Positions 6,505 to 60,918 of a stretch of 64,000 nt of DNA are shown here, piece by piece. The translations under genes were made by a program, and so were the position numbers. Numbering within the stretch: position 1 is the stretch's first letter; each line of letters begins with the position of its first letter. The notes beneath the pieces are model-generated. The model was not told the origin of the DNA. It was given only the letters and a program-made list of their open reading frames with translations, and did not search any database. The stretch comes from Paracholeplasma vituli (GTDB lineage: Bacteria > Bacillota_I > Bacilli_A > Acholeplasmatales > UBA5453): NCBI RefSeq assembly GCF_025446935.1, contig NZ_JAOEGN010000013.1, forward strand, positions 1 to 64,000, read 5' to 3'.

Positions 6505-7203
6505 ATGAGAACAAATTACAGTATTAAAAAACTCATTTTTATTGCTTCGCTTGCAGCCATTTCAGTCGTTTTCGGTCTAATCGAGATTCCACTCGGTTTA
6601 CCGTGGCTTAAATTGGATGTCAGCGAACTCGCGATTCTAGTCGCAGCAGTCGTAATCGGATATAAGGGCGCATTTACCCTTGTATTAATCCGAGGTTTAT
6701 TTAGACAATTGTTCCAGGGACATTTGTTCATGCCAACAGAGTTAGTTGGAGAAGCCATCGCGATGATTGCTTCAACAGTCATTTTGTTAAGCTATTATTT
6801 CATTTCAAAAGTACTTAAAACGTATCGAAAACCGCTAATTCTTGAAGCCGTTGTCGACCCACAACCGTTATCAAAGAAAGAAGTTATTGGTGTGATTGGT
6901 GGGATTACTGTACTGTTGACAGTGGTCTTAATCACTCTAAATATTTTTATTTTAACACCCATCTTTTTGAGCACGTATGATGCGATGTTTGGACTTTTCG
7001 GATTTGAACGTTTCTATATTACGGTGTTTCCACTATTAAATGATCCAGGGATGGCGAATATCTTTGGCGTAGACTTATCCAATTGGTCATTGTATTTAAC
7101 CTATATCATCAGTAATTACGCTGTTTTAAACCTTGCAAAAGGGTTTATCACAAGTGTGTTATTTTTAACAATTAAATCGACATTGGAAAAAGTTGAGTTA
7201 TAA
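6505..7203 (+). CDS. ribU: Riboflavin ECF transporter substrate-binding subunit
   Basis: The S component of an energy-coupling-factor transporter, which binds riboflavin in the membrane and works with the shared EcfT/EcfA units (not in this window). The 232-residue protein has about six hydrophobic segments. It shows the S-component start (IFIASLAAISVVFGL), the substrate-facing LKLDVSELAILVAAVVIGYKGAF stretch, and the loop RGLFRQLFQGHLFMPTELVGEAIA, all typical of RibU. The ATG follows an AGGAGG site. Placement directly under an FMN riboswitch with a terminator makes riboflavin the very likely substrate and shows repression by FMN. No rib biosynthesis genes are adjacent, so the cell may rely on uptake. 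Confidence 0.93.
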   Translation: MRTNYSIKKLIFIASLAAISVVFGLIEIPLGLPWLKLDVSELAILVAAVVIGYKGAFTLVLIRGLFRQLFQGHLFMPTELVGEAIAMIASTVILLSYYFISKVLKTYRKPLILEAVVDPQPLSKKEVIGVIGGITVLLTVVLITLNIFILTPIFLSTYDAMFGLFGFERFYITVFPLLNDPGMANIFGVDLSNWSLYLTYIISNYAVLNLAKGFITSVLFLTIKSTLEKVEL

Positions 7204-7226
7204 TAAAGTGTAAAGCGAGGTAAATT

Positions 7227-7721
7227 ATGAAAAGATTGTTATATGCATTAAAAGAACCATTCATCCCAGCTGATATGAAACGCTTTTTATTAGAAGGTTT
7301 CTTAGCAAGTATTGTCTTTGGTGGGTTTATTGGGGCTTTAGATTTCTACCTAGAAAATTACTTTAACTCAATCTTAGCGATTTTTACCTACTTGATTTTG
7401 TATTTTTTCTTATCCAATCGTTTGTATAGAAGCTTTAGTCAATACCATATAGCATATTCGATACTGGCTATTTTCTTCCTACTATTGAGTGAGTACATGA
7501 TGGGTTTGACAGCTAATTTGTTGATCATCCAATTGATCACAGGCAACGCAACCACCGTCTTCAGCAACTTTTGGTCAGCAATCGCTATCTTAAACCCATT
7601 GATTTATTTCAGTTATTTTTGGGTTTGGTTGCCTAATTTCGATGTCATCCTCAATAATATTTTACAAATCCTATTCACCATTTATTTTAGCTATAGCATC
7701 TATCAAATGATGAAACGCTGA
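7227..7721 (+). CDS. Unrecognised integral membrane protein
   Basis: I do not recognise this 164-residue protein. It has about four hydrophobic segments (roughly residues 26-42, 46-62, 72-100 and 115-160), a short basic N-terminus (MKRLLYALKEPF) and ends in MMKR, so both ends may face the cytoplasm. It begins 23 bp after ribU behind a weak GCGAGG site, with no promoter or terminator between, so it is probably cotranscribed with ribU under the FMN riboswitch. Codon use resembles the neighbours. No catalytic motif can be seen. A role in vitamin uptake would only be a guess from position. Confidence 0.6.
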   Translation: MKRLLYALKEPFIPADMKRFLLEGFLASIVFGGFIGALDFYLENYFNSILAIFTYLILYFFLSNRLYRSFSQYHIAYSILAIFFLLLSEYMMGLTANLLIIQLITGNATTVFSNFWSAIAILNPLIYFSYFWVWLPNFDVILNNILQILFTIYFSYSIYQMMKR

Positions 7722-9116
<1,395 letters not shown>

Positions 9117-9121
9117 TAACG

Positions 9122-9157
9122 AAAAACGCTCAGCTTAACTAGCCGAGCGTTTTTTTG
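9122..9157 (+). terminator. Rho-independent terminator of eno
   Basis: AAACGCTC...GCT / AGC...GAGCGTTT stem with a following run of T. It lies only a few bases from the 3' end of the opposing gene remnant at 9160. Confidence 0.9.
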
Positions 9158-9159
9158 CT

Positions 9160-9879
9160 TTAAAGTGCGATGACGATTCGTTTTACTTGATTGTTTTCAA
9201 GAAAGTAATACATAAAATCCTCTCTTGTCCAATCGAGATAGAGTTGAGCACCTAGATAGGTGATATCTGGGTGTTTATCTAGTGTCATCTTCAGAATAGA
9301 GTCCTTTAAAACATAATAGTGTTTGGGCGTCTCAATGACGTATGGTCCGTAATAATCGGATTTGATGGCACATGAGAAATCACCATCTAATGTAAATGAA
9401 TGTATCGAAATCCAAGCGTCATTATATATTGAAACTGCATTATCCTGTGAGATGACTACACTAGTTTGGTTGGTATTGGTGTAGCTCGCGAATTGATAGT
9501 CCACCTCAATCAAAGTTGAATCATAGACCAAGGTATCATCTAGAAGCCTAACCGTAATGTGATAAAGGTCGCCTTGATATTCTGCCAAAACTGAGTAGAC
9601 TCGTTGTCCTGTTTCGATTATAACCCATTGATCACCATATAAAGGGAGTCCTAATTGAGGTTCTTAAAAGTCGTTAAAAACTGGATCCATATGGTGCTTT
9701 TTTTCATGTATATTCATCGACTTTTTAACCGTTATATTAACACTAACTAAACTAAATGTCATTTCATTTTTAGTAAATATAACGAGGTAATCTTGACGAT
9801 TTAAATTGTTTGCTTGGTTTTGTGAATGAACCGATATACCATATGGTATAATTAAAATGAAGTTGGTGACGCTATGAAA
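9160..9879 (-). pseudogene. Decayed gene of unknown function
   Basis: One minus-strand frame stays open from 9879 to the stop at 9160 apart from a single TAA at 9664-9666. Before the stop it reads NFILIIPYGISVHSQNQ, like the tail of a signal peptide, then RQDYLVIFTKNEMTFSLVSVNITVKK. After it comes EPQLGLPLYGDQW and VIIETGQRVYSV, and on to the C-terminus VKRIVIAL. Downstream of the TAA the first start is a TTG at 9588 (142 codons) without a ribosome site. Upstream no ATG with a site exists, and the frame is cut where rnr begins on the other strand. I read it as an exported protein gene that lost its start and gained a nonsense codon. Family unknown. Confidence 0.6.
9835..9852 (+). promoter_or_regulatory. 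rnr promoter with a 16-bp perfect palindrome
   Basis: TATACCAT/ATGGTATA (9835-9850) is a perfect 16-bp palindrome that overlaps the extended -10 TGGTATAAT (9844-9852). The rnr ATG follows at 9874. It may be an operator. Confidence 0.65.
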
Positions 9880-11937
9880 TTAATCACTTTGTTTCAAAAT
9901 GGAACATCCTATACATTTGATGAACTCCTTGAACAAACCCATTTAGACCCTAAAACCTTATCGAGTCAACTCGATTTATTGGTAAGCGAGAAGAAACTTG
10001 TTAAAAAAGAAGCTTTGTACGCTTTAAGAACGACTTATGCAATTGGATTATTAGACATTAAGAACCAAGGGTTTGGTTTTTTATTACAAAAAGAAGAAGA
10101 CCTCTATATTTACGAAGAGGATTTGGGGTTTGCTTTAGATGGTGACCTCGTTTTAGTCCATGTAGGTAGACGTAATAAAATCGTTGAGGTATTGGAACAC
10201 AATACCCTTGAACTGGTGGTTCATGTTAAGAAAATCAATACTCAAGTACTGTTTTTACCGATTAAACCGTTAAGATTAAAAATTGAAGTTGAAACCCAAC
10301 AAACCTTTTTAGGGGGTGAAGTTTTACTTGTTAGACTTGAAAAATACGAAGGTAAAACCGTATATTCAACCATTATAAAATCACTAGGATTTGAAACAGA
10401 CCCAGGTATGGATATCCTTGAACTGGTCTATCAAGCTAATTGGCCTTATGAATTTTCAAAAGAAGCAATCGATGAGGCAGAATCTGTAAATCCAGTCGAC
10501 ATCGCACCACGTCGTGAAGTCACAGATGAACTCATCGTGACGATTGACGGTACGGATGCGAAAGACTTAGATGATGCTGTCGCGCTTAAAAAAGAAGACG
10601 ACACCTATAAACTATCGGTTCATATCGCCGATGTCTCAGCGTATGTTACTACTGATTCATTCATCGACCGTGACGCCATCCAAAGAACCACATCGGTGTA
10701 TTTAGCCGATCGTGTGATTCCGATGTTACCACGAAAACTATCCAATGACTTATGTAGTTTGAATGCGGGAACGCGTAAAAAATGTTTATCGGTTACGATG
10801 TGGTTGGACTTAGATGCGAATGTCATTGACCATAAGATTGAACAAACTTGGATTACTGTGGATAAGCGCCTAAACTACGATGAAGTTAACCTTTTCTTAG
10901 ATGGAGAAACCACACTTTATACCAAAGAAATCGAACAAATGATTACGGATATGGCATACATCTCCGATATTTTAGAAGAGAAACGCAGAGCCCGTGGGGC
11001 TTTAGAGTTCAAATCCCTTGAATTCAAATACGAAACCGATGACTTAGGTAATATCATCGATATCCATCCGTATGTATCTGGTCGTGGACAAAAACTCATT
11101 GAATCGTTCATGGTCTTAGCCAATGAAACCGTATCGATGCATCTATCCTCGATGGAATTACCATGTATTTATCGTATCCATGATAAACCAACAGAAGAAA
11201 AATTAATGAATGTGATGAATATGTTAAAAGAAATGGGCATTAAGATACCTAAACTACATCATATCACACCGAAAACACTTCAAAATATTCTCGATAAAGT
11301 CGAAGGTCATCCACTCGAAATCGTGATTCATACCATGTTATTAAGAGCGATGCAAAAAGCAGAATACAGTGGAAAAAATATTGGACACTATGGCCTAGCA
11401 TCGACATTCTATTCACACTTTACGTCTCCAATTAGACGTTATCCAGACTTACTTTTACATAGACTAATTAGAGCATTCTTAATTGAAACCGACAATTTTG
11501 ATCAAAACTATCGTTACTACGAATCGGTCATTGTAACGATTGCGGAAAAATGTTCAATGATGGAACGTAAAGCGGATGAACTCGAAAGAGAAACCGACAA
11601 ATTGAAGACCACTCAATTCATGGCGAATAAGAAGAACCAAGTCTTTGATGCGATGATTTCTAACATCACTAAAGCCGGTATTTTCATTCGCTTAGAAAAT
11701 GGTATTGAAGGGTTAGCACCGGTTCGTTTGATGAAGGATTACTACTATTTTGATGATGTTCATTTGACCCTAAAAGGTAAAAACAATAAAAATACATACT
11801 CCATTGGAAACCCAATCCGAGTTAAACTGATCGATTGTGATGTCGTTTTAAGACAACTCACATTCACTGTATTAGAGGAAAAAAACTATGAAAGAAAAGA
11901 TTTCAATCGTAACACAAAACAAAAAGGCAAGGCATGA
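9874..11937 (+). CDS. rnr: Ribonuclease R
   Basis: Processive 3'-5' exoribonuclease that degrades structured RNA and, with tmRNA-SmpB, the defective mRNAs of stalled ribosomes. The 687 residues run: winged-helix start, two cold-shock-like strands regions, then the RNB catalytic domain and a C-terminal S1 domain. The RNB acidic cluster is seen in TIDGTDAKDLDDAV (about 223-236), with the later signatures HYGLASTFYSHFTSPIRRYPDLLLHRLI. S1 is in AGIFIRLENGIEGLAPV. A basic tail ends KQKGKA, overlapping smpB by 50 bp. The rnr-smpB pairing is conserved across Firmicutes and ties the enzyme to trans-translation. The ATG has a weak GTTGGTGA site. Confidence 0.97.
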   Translation: MKLITLFQNGTSYTFDELLEQTHLDPKTLSSQLDLLVSEKKLVKKEALYALRTTYAIGLLDIKNQGFGFLLQKEEDLYIYEEDLGFALDGDLVLVHVGRRNKIVEVLEHNTLELVVHVKKINTQVLFLPIKPLRLKIEVETQQTFLGGEVLLVRLEKYEGKTVYSTIIKSLGFETDPGMDILELVYQANWPYEFSKEAIDEAESVNPVDIAPRREVTDELIVTIDGTDAKDLDDAVALKKEDDTYKLSVHIADVSAYVTTDSFIDRDAIQRTTSVYLADRVIPMLPRKLSNDLCSLNAGTRKKCLSVTMWLDLDANVIDHKIEQTWITVDKRLNYDEVNLFLDGETTLYTKEIEQMITDMAYISDILEEKRRARGALEFKSLEFKYETDDLGNIIDIHPYVSGRGQKLIESFMVLANETVSMHLSSMELPCIYRIHDKPTEEKLMNVMNMLKEMGIKIPKLHHITPKTLQNILDKVEGHPLEIVIHTMLLRAMQKAEYSGKNIGHYGLASTFYSHFTSPIRRYPDLLLHRLIRAFLIETDNFDQNYRYYESVIVTIAEKCSMMERKADELERETDKLKTTQFMANKKNQVFDAMISNITKAGIFIRLENGIEGLAPVRLMKDYYYFDDVHLTLKGKNNKNTYSIGNPIRVKLIDCDVVLRQLTFTVLEEKNYERKDFNRNTKQKGKA

Positions 11938-51963: not shown

Positions 51964-52914
51964 ATGAAAGAAATGTTTTTAAAGGCAGCTGCGGACGATG
52001 TCCTTTATTTTTTTCAAACACAATTGAATTTAAGTGAAACTGATGAACGTGGACAAACTTTATTGCACTATGCAGTACGTACCTCTGCCCGACAAGTCAT
52101 CGCTTATTTACTGGATAATGATATCGATATCAACGTTCAAGATCAAACCGGTGAATCAGTTTTATTTGATTGTTGTAAAAAAGGAAAGCTTCAAATAGCC
52201 AAACAACTTATTCGAAAATTCGCGAATGTGAATCTCAAAAATCATAAAGGGGAACAACCCATCCATATCGCCTCGATGAAAGCAGATTATGATATGGTCA
52301 AATTGCTTTTAGAAGCAGGTGCGAGTTTGAATGAAAAGACGAGAGATGGTCATAGTGTCATTCATTACGCCATTAAGAGCCGTCAAATCCCTTTTTTAGA
52401 ATTTATTTTAAAACATTCCAGTCAGAAATCTAAAGACTTAGATGTCTTTAAAAATACGTGTTTGCATATTGCCTGTGAAACTGGTGCATTGAACATGGTT
52501 GAATACTTACTGGATAATGGACACAATCCTAATCTCAAAAACAGTTCAAAAGAAACCCCGCTATTTCCTGCGATCAAGAGTGGACAAACAGAAATCGTTC
52601 AACGCTTATTATCTAGTGAGGCGGAAATAGAAGTTAAGAATCGATTTGGAGAAACCCCATTAGAGTACGCAATACAACTGGGTCAAATTGACATTCAAGG
52701 TATGCTTGAAACCCATCAAGCGAGTAGTTTTTACAAACAAATGATTAAAAAAAATCCCCTTCGGCACGCAGTGCTGATCGAGGATTTGGATTTATTGCTT
52801 AAAAATATTCATGTCGGGGTACGCGATCTAAAAGATACCTTCCAGATGACCGCGTATGATTACGCAAATAAAGTAGGATTAAAAGCCTTTAAAGAAGTGC
52901 TTGAAATAAAATAA
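51964..52914 (+). CDS. Ankyrin-repeat protein
   Basis: A 316-residue cytoplasmic protein built of about seven ankyrin repeats of 33 residues. Clear units: DERGQTLLHYAVRTSARQVIAYLLDNDIDINVQ, DQTGESVLFDCCKKGKLQIAKQLIRKFANVNLK, NHKGEQPIHIASMKADYDMVKLLLEAGASLNEK, then further units to about residue 250. No signal peptide or catalytic domain is visible. The last 60 residues (ASSFYKQMIKKNPLRHAVLIEDLDLLLKNI) look like degenerate repeats. Such proteins bind other proteins; in a wall-less bacterium a housekeeping or host-related role cannot be told apart. Its 3' end overlaps the opposing protease gene by 26 bp. Confidence 0.9.
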   Translation: MKEMFLKAAADDVLYFFQTQLNLSETDERGQTLLHYAVRTSARQVIAYLLDNDIDINVQDQTGESVLFDCCKKGKLQIAKQLIRKFANVNLKNHKGEQPIHIASMKADYDMVKLLLEAGASLNEKTRDGHSVIHYAIKSRQIPFLEFILKHSSQKSKDLDVFKNTCLHIACETGALNMVEYLLDNGHNPNLKNSSKETPLFPAIKSGQTEIVQRLLSSEAEIEVKNRFGETPLEYAIQLGQIDIQGMLETHQASSFYKQMIKKNPLRHAVLIEDLDLLLKNIHVGVRDLKDTFQMTAYDYANKVGLKAFKEVLEIK

Positions 52915-54146: not shown

Positions 54147-54800
54147 ATGAAAAAAACGTATTTAGTAATTGGAATGGACACCTTCGGGATTGCACTCTGT
54201 GAAGAACTCACCACACTCGGAGCGGATGTCATCGCTTTAGATAAAAAAGAAGAAGCTATTAACCGTGTAACAGGGATTGTTGAAAATGCGGTCATTGGGG
54301 ATTCAACCGATATCAACGTTTTAAGAGAAATCGGTGCACAACACGCAGACCATGTGATTGTTTCGATTCCAGGAAATGTTGAAAATAGCATTTTGACCAC
54401 CATGATTCTGTCGGAAATGAAGGTTCCAAAGATTACTGTAAAAGTCGATAATGACTACCATGCAAAAGTAGCTGAGAAAGTAGGAGCCACAGAAGTGGTT
54501 TCATCTGAAAAGTCAGCTGGTCGTCGTCTTGCAAGAAGATTACTGTCAGATAACGTTCTAGACTATTATAATATCACGGATGATTATGGTGTCTATGAAA
54601 TATTCATTGGAGAAGACTTCAAATCTGTAAAAATTGTCGATTTGGATATTCGTAATCGTTTTGATGTCAATATTTTGTTAATTAAGCGTGGTAAAAATGT
54701 CATTTTACCGAAAGCAGACAGTGAACTACGCAGTAAGGATATTGTCATTGTATTAGGTAAACACGACCGTATGTCGAAGTTTCAAAGTATCTTACACTAA
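54147..54800 (+). CDS. TrkA/KtrA-type potassium channel regulatory subunit
   Basis: A cytoplasmic RCK protein that gates potassium transporters on nucleotide binding. The 218 residues: RCK-N Rossmann domain (YLVIGMDTFGIALCEELTTLGADVIALDKKEEAINRV; TDINVLREIGAQHADHVIVSIP) and TrkA-C domain (YEIFIGEDFKSVKIVDLDIRNRFDVNILLIKRGKNVILP). The glycine loop reads GMDTFG where KtrA has GLGRFG, so two usual positions differ. I start at ATG 54147, after GGATGTGAT; ATG 54126 lacks a site. No membrane partner (KtrB) is adjacent, so it would act with one encoded elsewhere. It has its own terminator. Confidence 0.87.
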   Translation: MKKTYLVIGMDTFGIALCEELTTLGADVIALDKKEEAINRVTGIVENAVIGDSTDINVLREIGAQHADHVIVSIPGNVENSILTTMILSEMKVPKITVKVDNDYHAKVAEKVGATEVVSSEKSAGRRLARRLLSDNVLDYYNITDDYGVYEIFIGEDFKSVKIVDLDIRNRFDVNILLIKRGKNVILPKADSELRSKDIVIVLGKHDRMSKFQSILH

Positions 54801-54831
54801 AAAATCAGGAAAACCCTGATTTTTCTTTTTT
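54799..54831 (+). terminator. Terminator of the KtrA-like gene
   Basis: AAAATCAGG / CCTGATTTT stem with an AAAAC loop and a T-rich tail. Confidence 0.9.
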
Positions 54832-54898: not shown

Positions 54899-55468
54899 AT
54901 GAAACTGTTGGTAGCGACTCAAAACAAGCATAAAAAAGAAGAGATTGAAGCGATTTTGAACCCCTCTTTTGAAGTGGTAACTCTCTCCGATTTAAACGAT
55001 TTCGATGAAGTCGAAGAAACCGGTGATTCGTTTTTTGAGAATGCACTCTTAAAAGCATCCTATTATGCCAAGAAACACCAAATGTTAACACTCGCCGATG
55101 ATTCAGGCTTGTGTATTGATGCATTAAATGGTGAACCAGGTATTTATAGTGCCAGATATTCTGGAGGGTCAGATCAAGAGAACATTCAATTGGTCTTAGA
55201 CAAATTAAGAGATACACAAGACCGTGGTGCTCACTTTACCTGTGTACTCGTTTTGTATGACCCATCCACCAATGCCCATCAATCCTTTCAAGGTGACCTA
55301 TATGGTATCATCGAATCCAAGCCAAAAGGCTCTAATGGATTTGGGTATGACCCAATTTTCTTCGTTCCTGAATACAAACAAACACTCGCAGAAATGCATT
55401 CAAAACATAAAAACCTAATCTCACATCGAGCGATTGCCTTACAAGCGCTCAAGGAGGCTTTAATATGA
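54899..55468 (+). CDS. rdgB: XTP/dITP diphosphatase (RdgB/HAM1)
   Basis: Clears non-canonical purine nucleotides such as dITP and XTP from the pool. The 189 residues contain LLVATQNKHKKEEIEAIL, TGDSFFENALLKASYYAKKHQMLTLADDSGLCIDAL, EPGIYSARYSG, GSNGFGYDPIFFVPEYKQTLAEM and KNLISHRAIALQAL, all diagnostic. ATG 54899 has AAAGGAG. It overlaps the phosphodiesterase gene by 4 bp, the conserved rdgB-ysnB pair of Firmicutes. Confidence 0.98.
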   Translation: MKLLVATQNKHKKEEIEAILNPSFEVVTLSDLNDFDEVEETGDSFFENALLKASYYAKKHQMLTLADDSGLCIDALNGEPGIYSARYSGGSDQENIQLVLDKLRDTQDRGAHFTCVLVLYDPSTNAHQSFQGDLYGIIESKPKGSNGFGYDPIFFVPEYKQTLAEMHSKHKNLISHRAIALQALKEALI

Positions 55469-55908
55469 AAGTACTGATCACCTCGGATACCCATGGTCGT
55501 TATGACCGCTTACGCGCAATCAGTCTAAAACACGCTGACAAAGATTACCATCTGGATGCCGGCGATTTAGTTTTGACTCAAGCTGAAATGGAATCTCTGC
55601 ATTTGAAAGCAGTCAAAGGCAATGGTGATTTGTATTTAGATTTACCGCTCCAACAAATTGTGATCATCGATCATAAAAAGTTCTTATTGGTCCACGGACA
55701 CATTCAAGAAGTTAAATATGGCTTAGACAAACTCATCAAATTAGCTGAATACATCCAAGTCGATTACGTCATTTACGGTCATACCCATGAGCGTAAATTA
55801 TTAGAATACAACGGCATAACCTACATCAATCCGGGTGCGATTTCCAACATTATCCCGTCTTATGCCATTTATGAAAATGGAAAGATAACTTTCCATCAAG
55901 GAGTTTAA
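55465..55908 (+). CDS. ysnB: YfcE/MJ0936-family metallophosphoesterase
   Basis: A small di-metal phosphodiesterase, 147 residues. Ligands: D and H in LITSDTHGRYDRL, D in YHLDAGDLV, N in VKGNGDLYL, H in LLVHGHIQEVKYG and YGHTHERKL, then INPGAIS. Related enzymes cleave artificial phosphodiesters; the natural substrate is unknown. ATG 55465 overlaps rdgB, after CAAGGAGG. The next gene begins 2 bp after its stop. Confidence 0.92.
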   Translation: MKVLITSDTHGRYDRLRAISLKHADKDYHLDAGDLVLTQAEMESLHLKAVKGNGDLYLDLPLQQIVIIDHKKFLLVHGHIQEVKYGLDKLIKLAEYIQVDYVIYGHTHERKLLEYNGITYINPGAISNIIPSYAIYENGKITFHQGV

Positions 55909-55910
55909 TT

Positions 55911-56765
55911 ATGGAACAAGAAATCATCAAATTAGCAAGTCAAATCTTAAAAAAAGACGTCCAAGTTGTCGAACGCCTCATGGGTGGTATGAGCAATTAT
56001 ACGTATATCATCGAAGCAGAAGGGAAGAAGTACACATTTCGTAAACCTGGAGATAAAGCAGAAAACTTTGTTTCTAGAACCATTGAACGTAAGAACATTG
56101 ATTTGGTTGAGTCCCTAGGTATTACCAACCATACTGTATACCTCAATCTAGAAAATGGTTTAAAAATCGCGGAATATGTTAACGGAACTGTACTGTCATC
56201 GATGCCACGTCAACCTCATTTAGAAGCGGTTGCGAAAACGTTAAAGAAGATTCATCAATCGGGCTTAAAGGCTGAAAATGACTATGACCATTTGGGCAGA
56301 CTTGCTAAGTATGAATCTTATAACCATACCCTATCCCCACGCTATGTTGAGTTAAAAAATATATGGCTAACTTGGTTTGAACAATATAAAAAACTGCCAA
56401 TGGTATTTTGCCATGGAGATGCTCAACCTTCGAACTTCATCATCACTAAATATAATGAAGCCTTGGTTGTAGACTTTGAATTCAGCGGCAATAATGACCC
56501 ATATTATGATATTGCACAGTTTGGTAACATTGATTTTCACGATGCGTTAGCTCTACTCGATGTGTACTGTAACCATCAAGCTACTAAAGAAGATAAGAAA
56601 CGTGTGATTTTCTACCGTATGTTCTTAACCCTTCAATGGCACCAAGTAGCCACATTTAAGCATGAAATTGGGTTATCTGAAAAACTCCATATTCCATTTG
56701 ATAAAGTCGCAATAGCGTACTTGGATAAAGCAGAAGCTTTGAAAAATATGCACCTTGAGGTTTAA
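55911..56765 (+). CDS. Choline/aminoglycoside kinase-like phosphotransferase
   Basis: A 284-residue protein of the APH/choline-kinase fold. Catalytic loop MVFCHGDAQPSNFII (HGDxxxxN) and metal motif VVDFEFSGNNDPYYDIAQF (D-F-E) are complete, and the N-lobe MGGMSNYTYIIEAEGKKYTFRKPG holds the nucleotide-binding glycine and lysine positions. Closest in look to LicA-type choline or thiamine kinases; the substrate cannot be assigned. ATG 55911 follows AAGGAGTTTAATT. It lies between ysnB and the 1003-residue protein, 3 bp before the latter, so it belongs to the same operon. Confidence 0.88.
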   Translation: MEQEIIKLASQILKKDVQVVERLMGGMSNYTYIIEAEGKKYTFRKPGDKAENFVSRTIERKNIDLVESLGITNHTVYLNLENGLKIAEYVNGTVLSSMPRQPHLEAVAKTLKKIHQSGLKAENDYDHLGRLAKYESYNHTLSPRYVELKNIWLTWFEQYKKLPMVFCHGDAQPSNFIITKYNEALVVDFEFSGNNDPYYDIAQFGNIDFHDALALLDVYCNHQATKEDKKRVIFYRMFLTLQWHQVATFKHEIGLSEKLHIPFDKVAIAYLDKAEALKNMHLEV

Positions 56766-56768
56766 TTT

Positions 56769-59700
56769 ATGACACTCGAAGCGTTGTTAAAACAGCCTAA
56801 AACCCACGAAACGATTCAACTCATTGAATCGTTTTTAAACACGTCTTCGAATGAATCAGAACATACTCAAGCAAAATTCTTTTATGCAAGTCTTTTAACC
56901 CATTTAGGACAGTATGAACTATCTAATCAACTCTGTGAAACACTCTTAGAAGAGCTTAAACACAAAGAAGATGATGACCTCTATGTTGAAGTCTTATTCG
57001 TAATGAGCGAAAACTACATCGAACTTAAAGATTACAGTGAAGCGAAGAAGCGAATTGAACAACGTAGACGGGCATTACCGATATTGAAACAATACATGTA
57101 TTACATGGACTTAATCCGTCTGGCCAAAGCAGAAAACGAACCCTATGATCAGTTTGTGAATAAAGCGTTAGAGGATGCGATACCCGAACAAATCCGTCAA
57201 ACCCTTCAATTAGATAAACTCGATGGGTATGTGAATTCTGGAGCGTATGATCTCGCTATGGATATGATCAAGCAGCTTAGAATGAGACAGTTGTCACCAG
57301 AAACTGCACAAAAGCTTCAACTGATTGAACTCGATATTCTCACAAAATCGAATCATTATGAAGCCATTTTAACTATCACCCAAAATCAACATCACCCAAG
57401 ACTTTATAAATACCATCTTTCAGCCTTAATTGGTCTAAAGAAAACACACCAAGTCTCAATTTTTGAAGTTGAACACGAAAAAGAATTCGAAACCTTAAGT
57501 GTCGAAGATCAAAAGGCCATTTACACGTGTCTAGTCGATTTTTACGATAAAGAAAAAGATACACTTTCAGCTGAAACCTATTCGAAGAAACTGAAACAAC
57601 TTAAAAAAATCGAATCTAGTTTAAGTAAACCAATCGAAAGAACTGAAGTAGAGATACCAATAGAACCAGTCATAAAAAAAGACATCATGATTGAAAAAAC
57701 AGTCATTCCTTTGGTTGAAAAACGCTATATAGACCGCTCCAAAGACTTTGAAGCGATTCACACGTTATTAAAAACGGGACTTACGTTACCAGAAACTGTA
57801 TCTGGTAGAGAACAAGCACGTTTTTTACTCGAACAAGCACTTGATCAAAAACCATTTAGTACCGTATTAATTTATTTAAACGGGACTTTGAAAATGTATC
57901 GTAAAGGTCGTTTATACGACAAAATGATTGAAAAAGAAGATCTTCTAAAAAGCGTTTTTCATGCTGCTTTCTTAAAACAGGAAGACATCATTGAAGAGAC
58001 CGACATCATCCGTTGGAATTACGATGTGATAACGAGAAAGCCCTACGATATAGAAACTGTTAAACGGCTCTATACATACGCCATAAAAAATGGGGCACTA
58101 TCTTATTATCAAACAGATGATTCAACGCCTACGATTTATGATGACTATTTAAAACTATTAACCACACTCATTGAAAAAACCTTCACTCAAGAAGATAAAC
58201 ATGCTACAGTGTCTCAAAAACTAGAATTCTATCAAACGATACTTGATTCAAACCTCATCGCTTTAAAAATAGAAACTGAAGATGGTGTGCATCTCAATTT
58301 AAAAGCATCTAATCTTTTAGAGTTGAAGCAGAATCTATCGAGCGCTGAATACACCTCATCCATTAAAGGCGAAGACCAAATTAAGTACCAGCAATTTAAA
58401 CAAAAACTCACAACAAGCCCAACACCTTCTGTAATCAGATATGAAATCCGTAACAAGATGTTTGAAGAACAAGTAATCAAATTCAATTCTATAAAAGATT
58501 ATGCGATTGTTTCAATTTTAACCGATGTTACAAATACACTCATTGAACACGAATTACTTTCACAACAAGCGAAAATTGATGGCATTACAGGGCATTTAAA
58601 CACGTATGCATTCTCGATTGATTTTGAGGATTATATAGATAAGAAATCGACCTTTGTTTTAATCCAACTACATGGTGTGGATGCGATTGAATCTCTCTAT
58701 GGAAAAATGAAGACCGATGCGTTTTTTAAAGAATTTGCCGATTACTCGCTCAAACAGTTAGAAAATTCAGTGGTGTATACACTCGATAATCATCAAGTGT
58801 TGATGGTACTACCTTATAACGATGTTCGAACGGTCGAAAAAGCCCTCCAAAACTATTTCAAGGCACTTAAAGAAAACACATCAGTAATACTGGCTAAGCA
58901 ACCATTTTTAGCTCATGCAGGTGTTATTCGTTATCCAGTGAATACGACGGAAACCAAACTTGAAAAAGTCATGCGTTTCTTACAGTTATCGCTTGAAAAA
59001 GCGAAACGCCGTTACAGCCATGTCCCATTCCAATACTTTGACTTCCAGGATTATCAAGAAGAACAATTTGAAGTGTCGATTATCGAACAAATGGACGATG
59101 CCATCACCCAAGAACAGCTTAAGTTGGTATTCTCACCGATTATTCATTTACAGACCAACAAAGTATTCTTGTATCAAGTGAACCCTATATTAGACACCTT
59201 AAGTGTTGACCCTAACTATTACTATTTGATAGCGAAAAGAAGACTTCAAATTGATAAACTCGACAAATATGTTTTAAAAACCGCTTTCCATTTTTTGAGT
59301 CAGCTCGCGGTGAAAACAGATAAATATATCCGACTTTCAATATCGATTGATGAAGACACATTCAGACAAAAAGATTTTAATGCCTACGTCATTGGTCTAA
59401 TTAAACAGTATGATTTACCATATTCTGTAATTGAGTTATCGATAAAGTCCACAAGTTTAAGTGGAGTTGAATGGATGAAAACACAAGAACTCGCTGATTT
59501 AGGTATTCATATCGGTGCATCTGAATGGTTTTATTCAACGATGCCATCGGTTCATTTCATTCATCGCCGTGAACCCATAAAACTCGATCAGCTCAAAACA
59601 CTAGATTTCATTTTGAGTTTTAAAGACTATCTTCAAAACCACCAAATGGGACTGATTTTAGAATCGATTGAAGATACAGATAAGAAGAAACTTAAAGATT

Positions 59701-59780
59701 ATCCAGCCATTTATGTTAAAGAATCCAAAATGACTTATAGTGAAGAAAAACTCATTCAAATGATTGAGGGGGCTAAATAA
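56769..59780 (+). CDS. Large TPR/PAS protein with degenerate GGDEF and EAL domains
   Basis: A 1003-residue cytoplasmic protein. Residues 1-270 are helical TPR-like repeats; a linker (about 280-320) is followed by a second helical part, a PAS-like part (about 480-590, ending IVSILTDVTNTLIEHELLSQQ), a GGDEF-like domain (about 600-760, opening KIDGITGHLNTYAF) and an EAL-like domain (about 770-1000, opening QLKLVFSPIIHLQTNKVF). The GGDEF site reads LDNHQVL (about 672-678). The EAL site reads YQVNP (about 802-806), and the DFG-type motif reads LGIHIGAS. Key glutamate and aspartates are therefore lost, while IKLD (937-940) and LILESIE (962-968) remain. It is probably a non-catalytic sensor. It overlaps the next gene by 1 bp. 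Confidence 0.75.
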   Translation: MTLEALLKQPKTHETIQLIESFLNTSSNESEHTQAKFFYASLLTHLGQYELSNQLCETLLEELKHKEDDDLYVEVLFVMSENYIELKDYSEAKKRIEQRRRALPILKQYMYYMDLIRLAKAENEPYDQFVNKALEDAIPEQIRQTLQLDKLDGYVNSGAYDLAMDMIKQLRMRQLSPETAQKLQLIELDILTKSNHYEAILTITQNQHHPRLYKYHLSALIGLKKTHQVSIFEVEHEKEFETLSVEDQKAIYTCLVDFYDKEKDTLSAETYSKKLKQLKKIESSLSKPIERTEVEIPIEPVIKKDIMIEKTVIPLVEKRYIDRSKDFEAIHTLLKTGLTLPETVSGREQARFLLEQALDQKPFSTVLIYLNGTLKMYRKGRLYDKMIEKEDLLKSVFHAAFLKQEDIIEETDIIRWNYDVITRKPYDIETVKRLYTYAIKNGALSYYQTDDSTPTIYDDYLKLLTTLIEKTFTQEDKHATVSQKLEFYQTILDSNLIALKIETEDGVHLNLKASNLLELKQNLSSAEYTSSIKGEDQIKYQQFKQKLTTSPTPSVIRYEIRNKMFEEQVIKFNSIKDYAIVSILTDVTNTLIEHELLSQQAKIDGITGHLNTYAFSIDFEDYIDKKSTFVLIQLHGVDAIESLYGKMKTDAFFKEFADYSLKQLENSVVYTLDNHQVLMVLPYNDVRTVEKALQNYFKALKENTSVILAKQPFLAHAGVIRYPVNTTETKLEKVMRFLQLSLEKAKRRYSHVPFQYFDFQDYQEEQFEVSIIEQMDDAITQEQLKLVFSPIIHLQTNKVFLYQVNPILDTLSVDPNYYYLIAKRRLQIDKLDKYVLKTAFHFLSQLAVKTDKYIRLSISIDEDTFRQKDFNAYVIGLIKQYDLPYSVIELSIKSTSLSGVEWMKTQELADLGIHIGASEWFYSTMPSVHFIHRREPIKLDQLKTLDFILSFKDYLQNHQMGLILESIEDTDKKKLKDYPAIYVKESKMTYSEEKLIQMIEGAK

Positions 59781-60874
59781 TGGTCACAGAATCTCTAGAT
59801 CAGATTGAATCGTTGGTATTAAACCACGATCTCAACCAAACACATTTTAAAATTAAATCCTGTATTCATGTTTTAAGACAATCTGAAGGCATTATTGAAG
59901 CATTTTTAGCTAAAAGTGAGATTGAAAATACCTCTGAGGTACTCATCCATATTTACGGACTTTTACAAAACATGTTCGTCTCAATTGACGCCCTTTATGA
60001 TTTAACCAAATTAACCATGAGCAATAAATATGCAGTTAACGTCAACCAAAACAAGAACTTACGTGAACTTAAGTACATTCGTAATGACATTGTCGGTCAC
60101 CCAACCCATCGTACCTATTCGACGGGTGGTGTTGGATTCTCATTGTTTTCCATTCCAGAAACTTCAATGATGACCATTACCTATGAAACACACTTTTTTA
60201 AACAAAAGGCCCATGAGGTATTCAAACATCATATTTCGACACAAGAGTTGATTGAAGATTACCATCAAGAATCCAGAATGATCATCGATGAAATCGCGAT
60301 GCACCTCCGTAAAGATACATTTAAACCTGAATTATCGATATTGGCAAAACAGTTCATGGATGGGATTTTACTTCAATCATTTGATGGGAATTTATTGGAT
60401 CGTATCCAATCTAGTTTTTTACAGAATAGAGATATCCCAAGGGATTCTCATAACCGCTTAATATGGCGTATTGAGCTTCTAAATCTACTTAACAAATGGC
60501 GTGAATCTGATGAAGAGAAGCGTGAATTTGTGGAATATATGAAAGCTGAACAAGCTTATAAAATCTATGAAATGACTTCCCACATCGAATCGATTGAACC
60601 TCAATATGTTAAAATCGAACATCCAGCATTATTGGTTAGTTTTTTCAAATTTATCCGTGAAAATGGGACCCGCGAAAAGTATTTAAAGTATTTAAAATCG
60701 TTTGACCACCCGTACCACTATGAAGACTTAAAAGAACTCCTAGAGGATGCGAAGAACAACCTTAGAGTTAGAAAACTATTGACGTGGCTTCAAAAACAAA
60801 CCTCAGAACAGCGTATATTTTTAATTGGAAGTGCCTTAGAAAAATATAAACGTACCGAATCAATTTCGGATTAA
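59780..60874 (+). CDS. HEPN-like protein of unknown function
   Basis: A 364-residue, almost wholly helical protein with no signal or membrane segment. Its N-terminal 120 residues carry NLRELKYIRNDIVGHPTHR, whose R101-x5-H107 fits the Rx4-6H motif of HEPN domains, many of which are RNases, preceded by long helices as in that fold. I cannot assign the rest (LIEDYHQESRMIIDEIAMHL; PEEKREF-like helices). The start overlaps the previous stop (TAATG), so the two proteins are made together and may bind each other. A strong hairpin ends the operon. The HEPN assignment is a motif-level inference and the domain may be non-catalytic. Confidence 0.6.
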   Translation: MVTESLDQIESLVLNHDLNQTHFKIKSCIHVLRQSEGIIEAFLAKSEIENTSEVLIHIYGLLQNMFVSIDALYDLTKLTMSNKYAVNVNQNKNLRELKYIRNDIVGHPTHRTYSTGGVGFSLFSIPETSMMTITYETHFFKQKAHEVFKHHISTQELIEDYHQESRMIIDEIAMHLRKDTFKPELSILAKQFMDGILLQSFDGNLLDRIQSSFLQNRDIPRDSHNRLIWRIELLNLLNKWRESDEEKREFVEYMKAEQAYKIYEMTSHIESIEPQYVKIEHPALLVSFFKFIRENGTREKYLKYLKSFDHPYHYEDLKELLEDAKNNLRVRKLLTWLQKQTSEQRIFLIGSALEKYKRTESISD

Positions 60875-60890
60875 CAACTACAAAAATGAT

Positions 60891-60918
60891 AAAAGCACTC
60901 ATTCCTGAGTGCTTTTTG
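60891..60918. terminator. Bidirectional terminator
   Basis: AAAGCACTCA / TGAGTGCTTT with a TTCC loop, flanked by A and T runs; ends the plus-strand operon and contains the stop of the minus-strand gene (60899-60901). Confidence 0.9.

Follow-up and report, generated by a model that had tools for sequence, protein, structure and literature searches.

The window analysed here, a stretch of 64,000 nucleotides of the Paracholeplasma vituli genome (contig NZ_JAOEGN010000013.1, positions 1 to 64,000), carries two coupled genes, named P1 and P2, which encode a multidomain protein with degenerate GGDEF and EAL domains and a protein resembling HEPN ribonucleases (RNases). The two genes and their junction are as follows:

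56769..59780, forward strand: P1, 1003 amino acids, with TPR, GAF-like, PAS, pseudo-GGDEF and pseudo-EAL regions
59780..60874, forward strand: P2, 364 amino acids, a HEPN-like protein
59766..59772, forward strand: Shine-Dalgarno-like GAGGGGG, read from the sequence, within the 3' end of P1 and 7 bases upstream of the P2 start

The last base of the P1 stop codon (TAA, 59778-59780) is also the first base of the P2 start codon ATG, resulting in a one-base overlap (TAATG). Both open reading frames and the overlap lay exactly where a preliminary description of the locus, made from the sequence alone, had placed them.

Analysis of P1 with Pfam showed a match to EAL (PF00563, E 1.3e-11), a GGDEF match under the cut-off (E 3e-4) and a weak match to TPR_12 (E 0.0015); the EAL match was present in all 33 aligned P1 members. 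The AlphaFold model had a predicted local distance difference test (pLDDT) score of 86.7 and a predicted template modelling (pTM) score of 0.39, so the arrangement of the domains relative to each other is uncertain. The following regions were assigned:

56769..57623, forward strand: TPR-like helical solenoid, amino acids 1-285 (TPR_12 match; all-helical model, pLDDT 80-94)
57741..58244, forward strand: GAF-like domain, amino acids ~325-492 (order of strands and helices in the model)
58251..58529, forward strand: PAS-like domain, amino acids ~495-587 (model; PAS_3/PAS matches of homologues; Foldseek matches to PAS-GGDEF-EAL proteins)
58575..59012, forward strand: pseudo-GGDEF domain, amino acids 603-748 (GGDEF loop replaced by D673-N-H-Q-V; D685-x-R687 conserved instead)
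59076..59723, forward strand: pseudo-EAL domain, amino acids ~770-985 (PF00563 match; metal and catalytic residues lost)

The linker between the solenoid and the GAF-like domain (residues 286-323) was disordered in the model, which had no evident membrane part. The GAF-like assignment was made based on secondary structure, an alpha/beta domain with a GAF-like order of elements, and this domain contains the most conserved motif of the P1 family, Y377-K/R-K-x-R381-x-Y383-x-K385, with R381 in 54 and Y383 in all 56 homologues. The best Foldseek matches, DosP (E 2.7e-21) and PA0861 (E 2.1e-18), covered the C-terminal 500 residues, and modules of LapD and FimX were also among the matches. The TPR, PAS, GGDEF and EAL folds named in the preliminary description were thus recovered, the TPR part by a weak Pfam match and the model, and the others by model and Foldseek, EAL also by a clear Pfam match; the GAF-like domain had been missed.

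Catalytic columns were read by alignment of the 56 P1 homologues with a canonical GGDEF-EAL protein (locus L189), and none of the 22 inspected catalytic or signature columns was conserved. Neither the GG[DE]EF loop, which reads D-N-H-Q-V in P1, nor the metal-binding aspartates of diguanylate cyclases were kept, and the same applied to the columns that define EAL phosphodiesterases (EAL, N, E, DDFG, K, E). The catalytic-lysine column corresponds to H932 of the window protein and holds H in 28 homologues and K in only 2; the E of EAL was present in 29, the R of LxR in 1, and DDFG was gone in nearly all. P1 thus corresponds to a degenerate GGDEF-EAL protein, i.e., a multidomain sensor that retains the fold but not the catalytic residues, and the earlier observation of replaced signatures extends from the window protein to the family of 56 homologues. 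The additional observation that IKLD and LILESIE survive as EAL signatures was not upheld: IKLD (936-939) is out of register with the catalytic-lysine column, and the two glutamates of LILESIE were kept in only 5 and 7 of the 56 homologues, so that both motifs are, judged from the alignment, local coincidences. The family conserves instead Y377-K-x2-R381-x-Y383 in the GAF-like domain, Y540, Y644, Y670, D685-x-R687, R721 and Y802. Because these residues were conserved while the catalytic columns were not, the catalytic loss is old and family-wide, in a protein that is not decaying. The GAF/PAS part matched a protein of another family (genome G117) that has a GAF-PAS-GGDEF-EAL architecture and a GDEF motif, as well as a shorter degenerate protein in genome G062, which suggests descent of P1 from an active GAF-PAS-GGDEF-EAL enzyme. 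The G062 protein (L221:2912-4621), with 570 residues, the GAF motif RYKSGRLYEK and a degenerate GGDEF-EAL part, is a possible cousin of P1 in another family without P2.

For P2, the AlphaFold model was confident (pLDDT 91.9, pTM 0.89) and comprised the following regions:

59837..60310, forward strand: HEPN-like region, amino acids 20-177 (helices 20-44, 51-80 and 92-106, three beta strands within 118-153, helix 154-177; pLDDT mostly >90)
60080..60100, forward strand: R101-N-D-I-V-G-H107, candidate RNase active site (D70 at 59987-59989)
60332..60841, forward strand: C-terminal helical domain, amino acids 185-354 (model; no family or fold match found)

In an alignment of 58 homologues, with identity down to 22%, R101, N102, G106 and H107 of the motif R101-N-D-x-V-G-H107 were invariant, and D103 and V105 were each present in 57. 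All 13 invariant residues (Q63, F66, D70, Y73, N89, N91, R101, N102, G106, H107, P108, R111 and Y135) fell within the 73-residue stretch 63-135, for which the chance expectation is (73/364)^13 = 8e-10; at this level of conservation, the R101-x5-H107 motif is not a chance occurrence. Model and alignment together confirmed P2 as a helical protein carrying this motif, as first described. According to the published definition, HEPN domains carry R-x4-6-H where helix 3 ends, with a polar residue following the R and, in many cases, an acidic residue in helix 2; domains retaining the motif have been argued to be RNases (PMC3710099). In the secondary-structure order of the P2 model, each of these points was found: the motif ends helix 3 (92-106), N102 directly follows R101, and D70 lies in helix 2 (51-80). 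Motif and predicted topology, on which the assignment of P2 rests, are compatible with HEPN membership. An assignment as GNAT acetyltransferase (E 0.0075) was rejected, as the match was below the cut-off and occurred in 2 of 40 members.

P2 homologues were found in 51 of 61 relatives. Sampling across the class and the phylum recovered them only from the order of the window and from one family outside it (f19). P1 and P2 were adjacent on one strand at 38 measured loci (families f1, f2, f4 and f19) and, by coordinates, in genome G006, i.e., at 39 loci in two orders. The gaps at the measured loci ranged from -80 to +22 and were mostly -1 or -4, corresponding to TAATG or ATGA overlaps. The proposed gene coupling was thereby borne out in both orders. 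The constant adjacency put forward as a check was not found: in f3, about 20 genomes carried both genes at distant sites, P1 with rdgB-yfcE and P2 mostly by typA/bipA or pyruvate kinase, and P1 occurred alone in five order members (G007, G008, G010, G016 and G039) as well as in the majority of f19 members; at least 13 contiguous loci of that family pass straight from P1 to the DUF1189-like gene. In the P2 tree with f19 as outgroup, the linked f2 split off before f3 (support 0.97); adjacency therefore looks ancestral and unlinking in f3 derived. P2 without P1 was found in 1 of about 60 genomes (G057, a 91%-complete assembly), and neither gene was found in the g20 genomes (0.7-0.9 Mb, probably phytoplasmas judging by size and placement) in which both were looked for. 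Compared with genome G004, P2 was better conserved than P1 (75% vs. 62%), and it had no match in plasmid or phage collections. At one locus (L074 in the one-contig genome G005, about 6561-10752), P1 and P2 each carried a single frameshift at a homopolymer run, which may reflect joint decay or sequencing error, the two not being distinguishable.

In the window, P1 and P2 are the last genes of an operon-like run bounded by terminator-like hairpins:

54800-54824: terminator-like hairpin bounding the operon upstream (consensus match only)
54899-55468, forward strand: RdgB-like gene, conserved
55465-55908, forward strand: YfcE-like phosphoesterase gene, conserved
55911-56765, forward strand: APH/choline-kinase-like gene, conserved
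60891..60916, matching on both strands: terminator-like hairpin ending the operon (consensus match only)

The context rdgB-yfcE-kinase-P1-P2 was common to f1, f2 and f4, and that in f19 was apt-relA/spoT-dtd-P1-P2-(DUF1189-like)-nusB-xseA. P1 was near-universal in f19 even though its GGDEF-EAL part was barely or not detectable by Pfam, and at five f19 loci (L172, L175, L176, L201 and L208) it was fixed in a core operon directly after relA/spoT and dtd and before nusB-xseA. Upstream of the operon, a gene for a 316-residue ankyrin-repeat protein (51964-52914) adjoins an HU gene and a CPBP-type protease-like membrane gene, a block kept across the order of the window.

Gene coupling and co-inheritance, the predicted fold of P1 and its catalytic loss, and a P2 motif that is invariant and sits at a HEPN-like position led us to the tentative reading, held with somewhat less than even confidence, that P1 acts without enzymatic activity, as a sensor/adaptor by which a HEPN-like RNase, P2, is gated or aimed, the two forming a chromosomal regulator-effector pair. 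From these observations we infer RNase activity of P2, physical contact between the proteins, a signal and a target. P1 would be a cytosolic sensor/adaptor derived from a GAF-PAS-GGDEF-EAL enzyme that lost both activities, with the TPR array serving protein contacts, and would bind P2, itself probably a metal-independent RNase with R101, N102, H107 and D70 as its active site. The GAF-like or PAS domain could then sense a small molecule and relay this signal through the dead GGDEF-EAL module and the TPR array, either gating P2 or aiming it at RNA. A role in core physiology is favoured because of the absence of plasmid and phage matches, the single copy per genome, the housekeeping context and the slower evolution of P2. 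A more far-reaching version, which we regard as plausible but less likely than not, is that the dead GGDEF-EAL/TPR/GAF/PAS protein directly gates a new HEPN RNase family in core physiology, possibly in translation or the stringent response, as an undescribed signalling system in two Bacilli orders including wall-less bacteria.

Several results weigh against the sensor/adaptor reading. No HEPN match to P2 was obtained in Pfam (40 members), NCBIfam, PADLOC, PHROGs or PDB sequences, Foldseek against PDB and BFVD returned nothing below E 0.17, and profile-profile comparison (hhalign) with DUF4145, whose R-x6-H pattern is similar, gave 0.3%; the HepT-like family was represented by only two loci in the phylum, too few for a profile. 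Because HEPN families are very divergent, these missing matches are not decisive. P2 is here termed HEPN-like since no profile, sequence or fold search tied it to a known HEPN protein; of the original HEPN interpretation, the invariant motif at the HEPN position of a confident helical model stood, and homology by profile or fold search did not. Furthermore, P1 is kept alone in many genomes and must therefore have a further role, as it cannot exist only to hold P2, and the unlinked genes of f3 indicate that co-translation is not required. Neither a fold clearly foreign to HEPN, nor variation of R101 or H107, nor a failure of the genes to co-occur, each named at the outset as grounds against the pair, was found outright.

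Among the alternatives, it is rather unlikely, though it deserves consideration, that P2 is an inactive HEPN-like or other helical protein binding RNA, a nucleotide or P1, whose invariant residues form a ligand site within a sensory or ribosome-associated complex. The lack of detectable homology to any HEPN RNase fits this explanation, as do the additional invariant polar residues Q63, Y73, N89, N91, R111 and Y135, which go beyond the minimal HEPN site and may contact a ligand, and the neighbours relA-dtd in f19 and typA/bipA in f3, which hint at translation. However, the RNase form of the motif is precisely R-N-x4-H, and domains that keep it have been argued to be RNases (PMC3710099).

A toxin-antitoxin or abortive-infection module, in which P2 would be a toxic RNase neutralised by P1 until stress or phage breaks the complex, is clearly unlikely and was rejected as the main explanation. 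The pair occurs in one copy per genome and in a housekeeping operon context, the P2 tree largely tracks family groupings, and no PADLOC, plasmid or phage match was obtained. P1 stands alone in the five order members and, at contiguous loci, in about 13 genomes of f19. P2 is the more conserved partner, unlike fast-evolving toxins, and P1 is far bigger than an antitoxin need be. Mobility, patchy distribution and strict pairing, as expected of such systems, were accordingly not observed, although RNase toxins such as HepT typically carry the HEPN motif (PMC3710099, PMC7641770), the genes overlap with the presumed antitoxin first, and P2 is dispensable and almost never found without P1. The asymmetric occurrence implies that P2 needs P1, whereas P1 does something else as well, a pattern more in keeping with an effector attached to a hub than with a toxin and its dedicated antitoxin.

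The genome contained 20 GGDEF matches including P1, and canonical GGDEF or GGEEF loops were present in 7 of the 8 strongest loci, which answers positively the suggestion to look for active-type enzymes; with so many canonical GGDEF enzymes, cyclic di-GMP (c-di-GMP) is probably made in the source organism and signalling by it probably present. P1 could be a receptor of the FimX/LapD type whose pseudo-EAL domain binds c-di-GMP and relays the messenger level to P2, in agreement with the 19 other GGDEF domains, several of them canonical, the LapD and FimX modules found by Foldseek and the E of EAL retained in about half of the homologues. This is possible but very unlikely, since the ligand contacts (the LxR arginine, the lysine and DDFG) are not conserved; moreover, the module is barely or not recognised by Pfam in f19, and no EAL catalytic residue is as well conserved as the GAF-like motif. 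A canonical CHASE4-GGDEF-EAL gene with an intact EAL domain (E 4.5e-65) was observed directly downstream of P2 at one locus (L189:3263-5623, genome G344), the sole such case seen. That P1 and P2 share an operon but no function, with adjacency retained by descent in slowly rearranging small genomes, is highly improbable: the entire operon is conserved in the order of the window and the genes are unlinked in f3, but f19 has the same adjacency with different neighbours on both sides, P2 is almost never without P1 even where unlinked, and the overlapping ATGA/TAATG junction recurs.

Among known systems, dead GGDEF-EAL scaffolds and HEPN proteins are each already established kinds. A literature search returned nothing joining "HEPN domain", GGDEF and EAL, nor degenerate GGDEF, TPR and ribonuclease, and both the conserved chromosomal GGDEF-EAL/HEPN-like pairing and the P2 family were absent from the libraries and literature searched. 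DosP and PA0861, the closest solved folds to the C-terminal 500 residues of P1, are c-di-GMP enzymes, whereas in P1 both active sites are gone and a TPR array is present. FimX and LapD, like P1, are degenerate GGDEF-EAL proteins; each works with a partner protein, in a receptor or scaffold role. They keep the ligand-binding EAL residues, c-di-GMP-bound structures being among the Foldseek matches, and their partners, according to PDB titles, are PilZ and LapG. In P1, the EAL ligand residues are not kept and the neighbour is HEPN-like rather than PilZ or LapG. HEPN-MNT modules (HepT/MntA) and other HEPN RNases share with P2 the R-x4-6-H motif closing helix 3, the polar residue after R and the acidic residue in helix 2, and HEPN-MNT is likewise a two-gene module with a regulator (PMC3710099, PMC7641770). 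However, P2 shows no detected profile or fold homology to them and has a long C-terminal helical domain, its partner is not a nucleotidyltransferase, and it was not found on mobile elements (plasmid and phage collections); if the proposed role is true, P2 would be a new HEPN-like family in chromosomal housekeeping rather than a mobile toxin.

The nearest precedent is CsrD, a protein with degenerate GGDEF and EAL domains that makes RNA susceptible to an RNase without enzymatic activity of its own. RNase E is a housekeeping RNase encoded elsewhere than CsrD. P1, in contrast, is encoded beside its own HEPN-like candidate nuclease, and CsrD is membrane-bound, whereas P1 has TPR, GAF-like and PAS regions. 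In Escherichia coli, CsrD does not turn over c-di-GMP, is needed for RNase E to cut CsrB/C, and binds the protein partner EIIA-Glc through its EAL domain (PMC5876332). Dead GGDEF-EAL proteins are common and few have a known output; CsrD shows that steering of an RNase is possible, and the conservation of P1-P2 across dozens of species in two orders makes the role of such proteins testable on a single gene pair.

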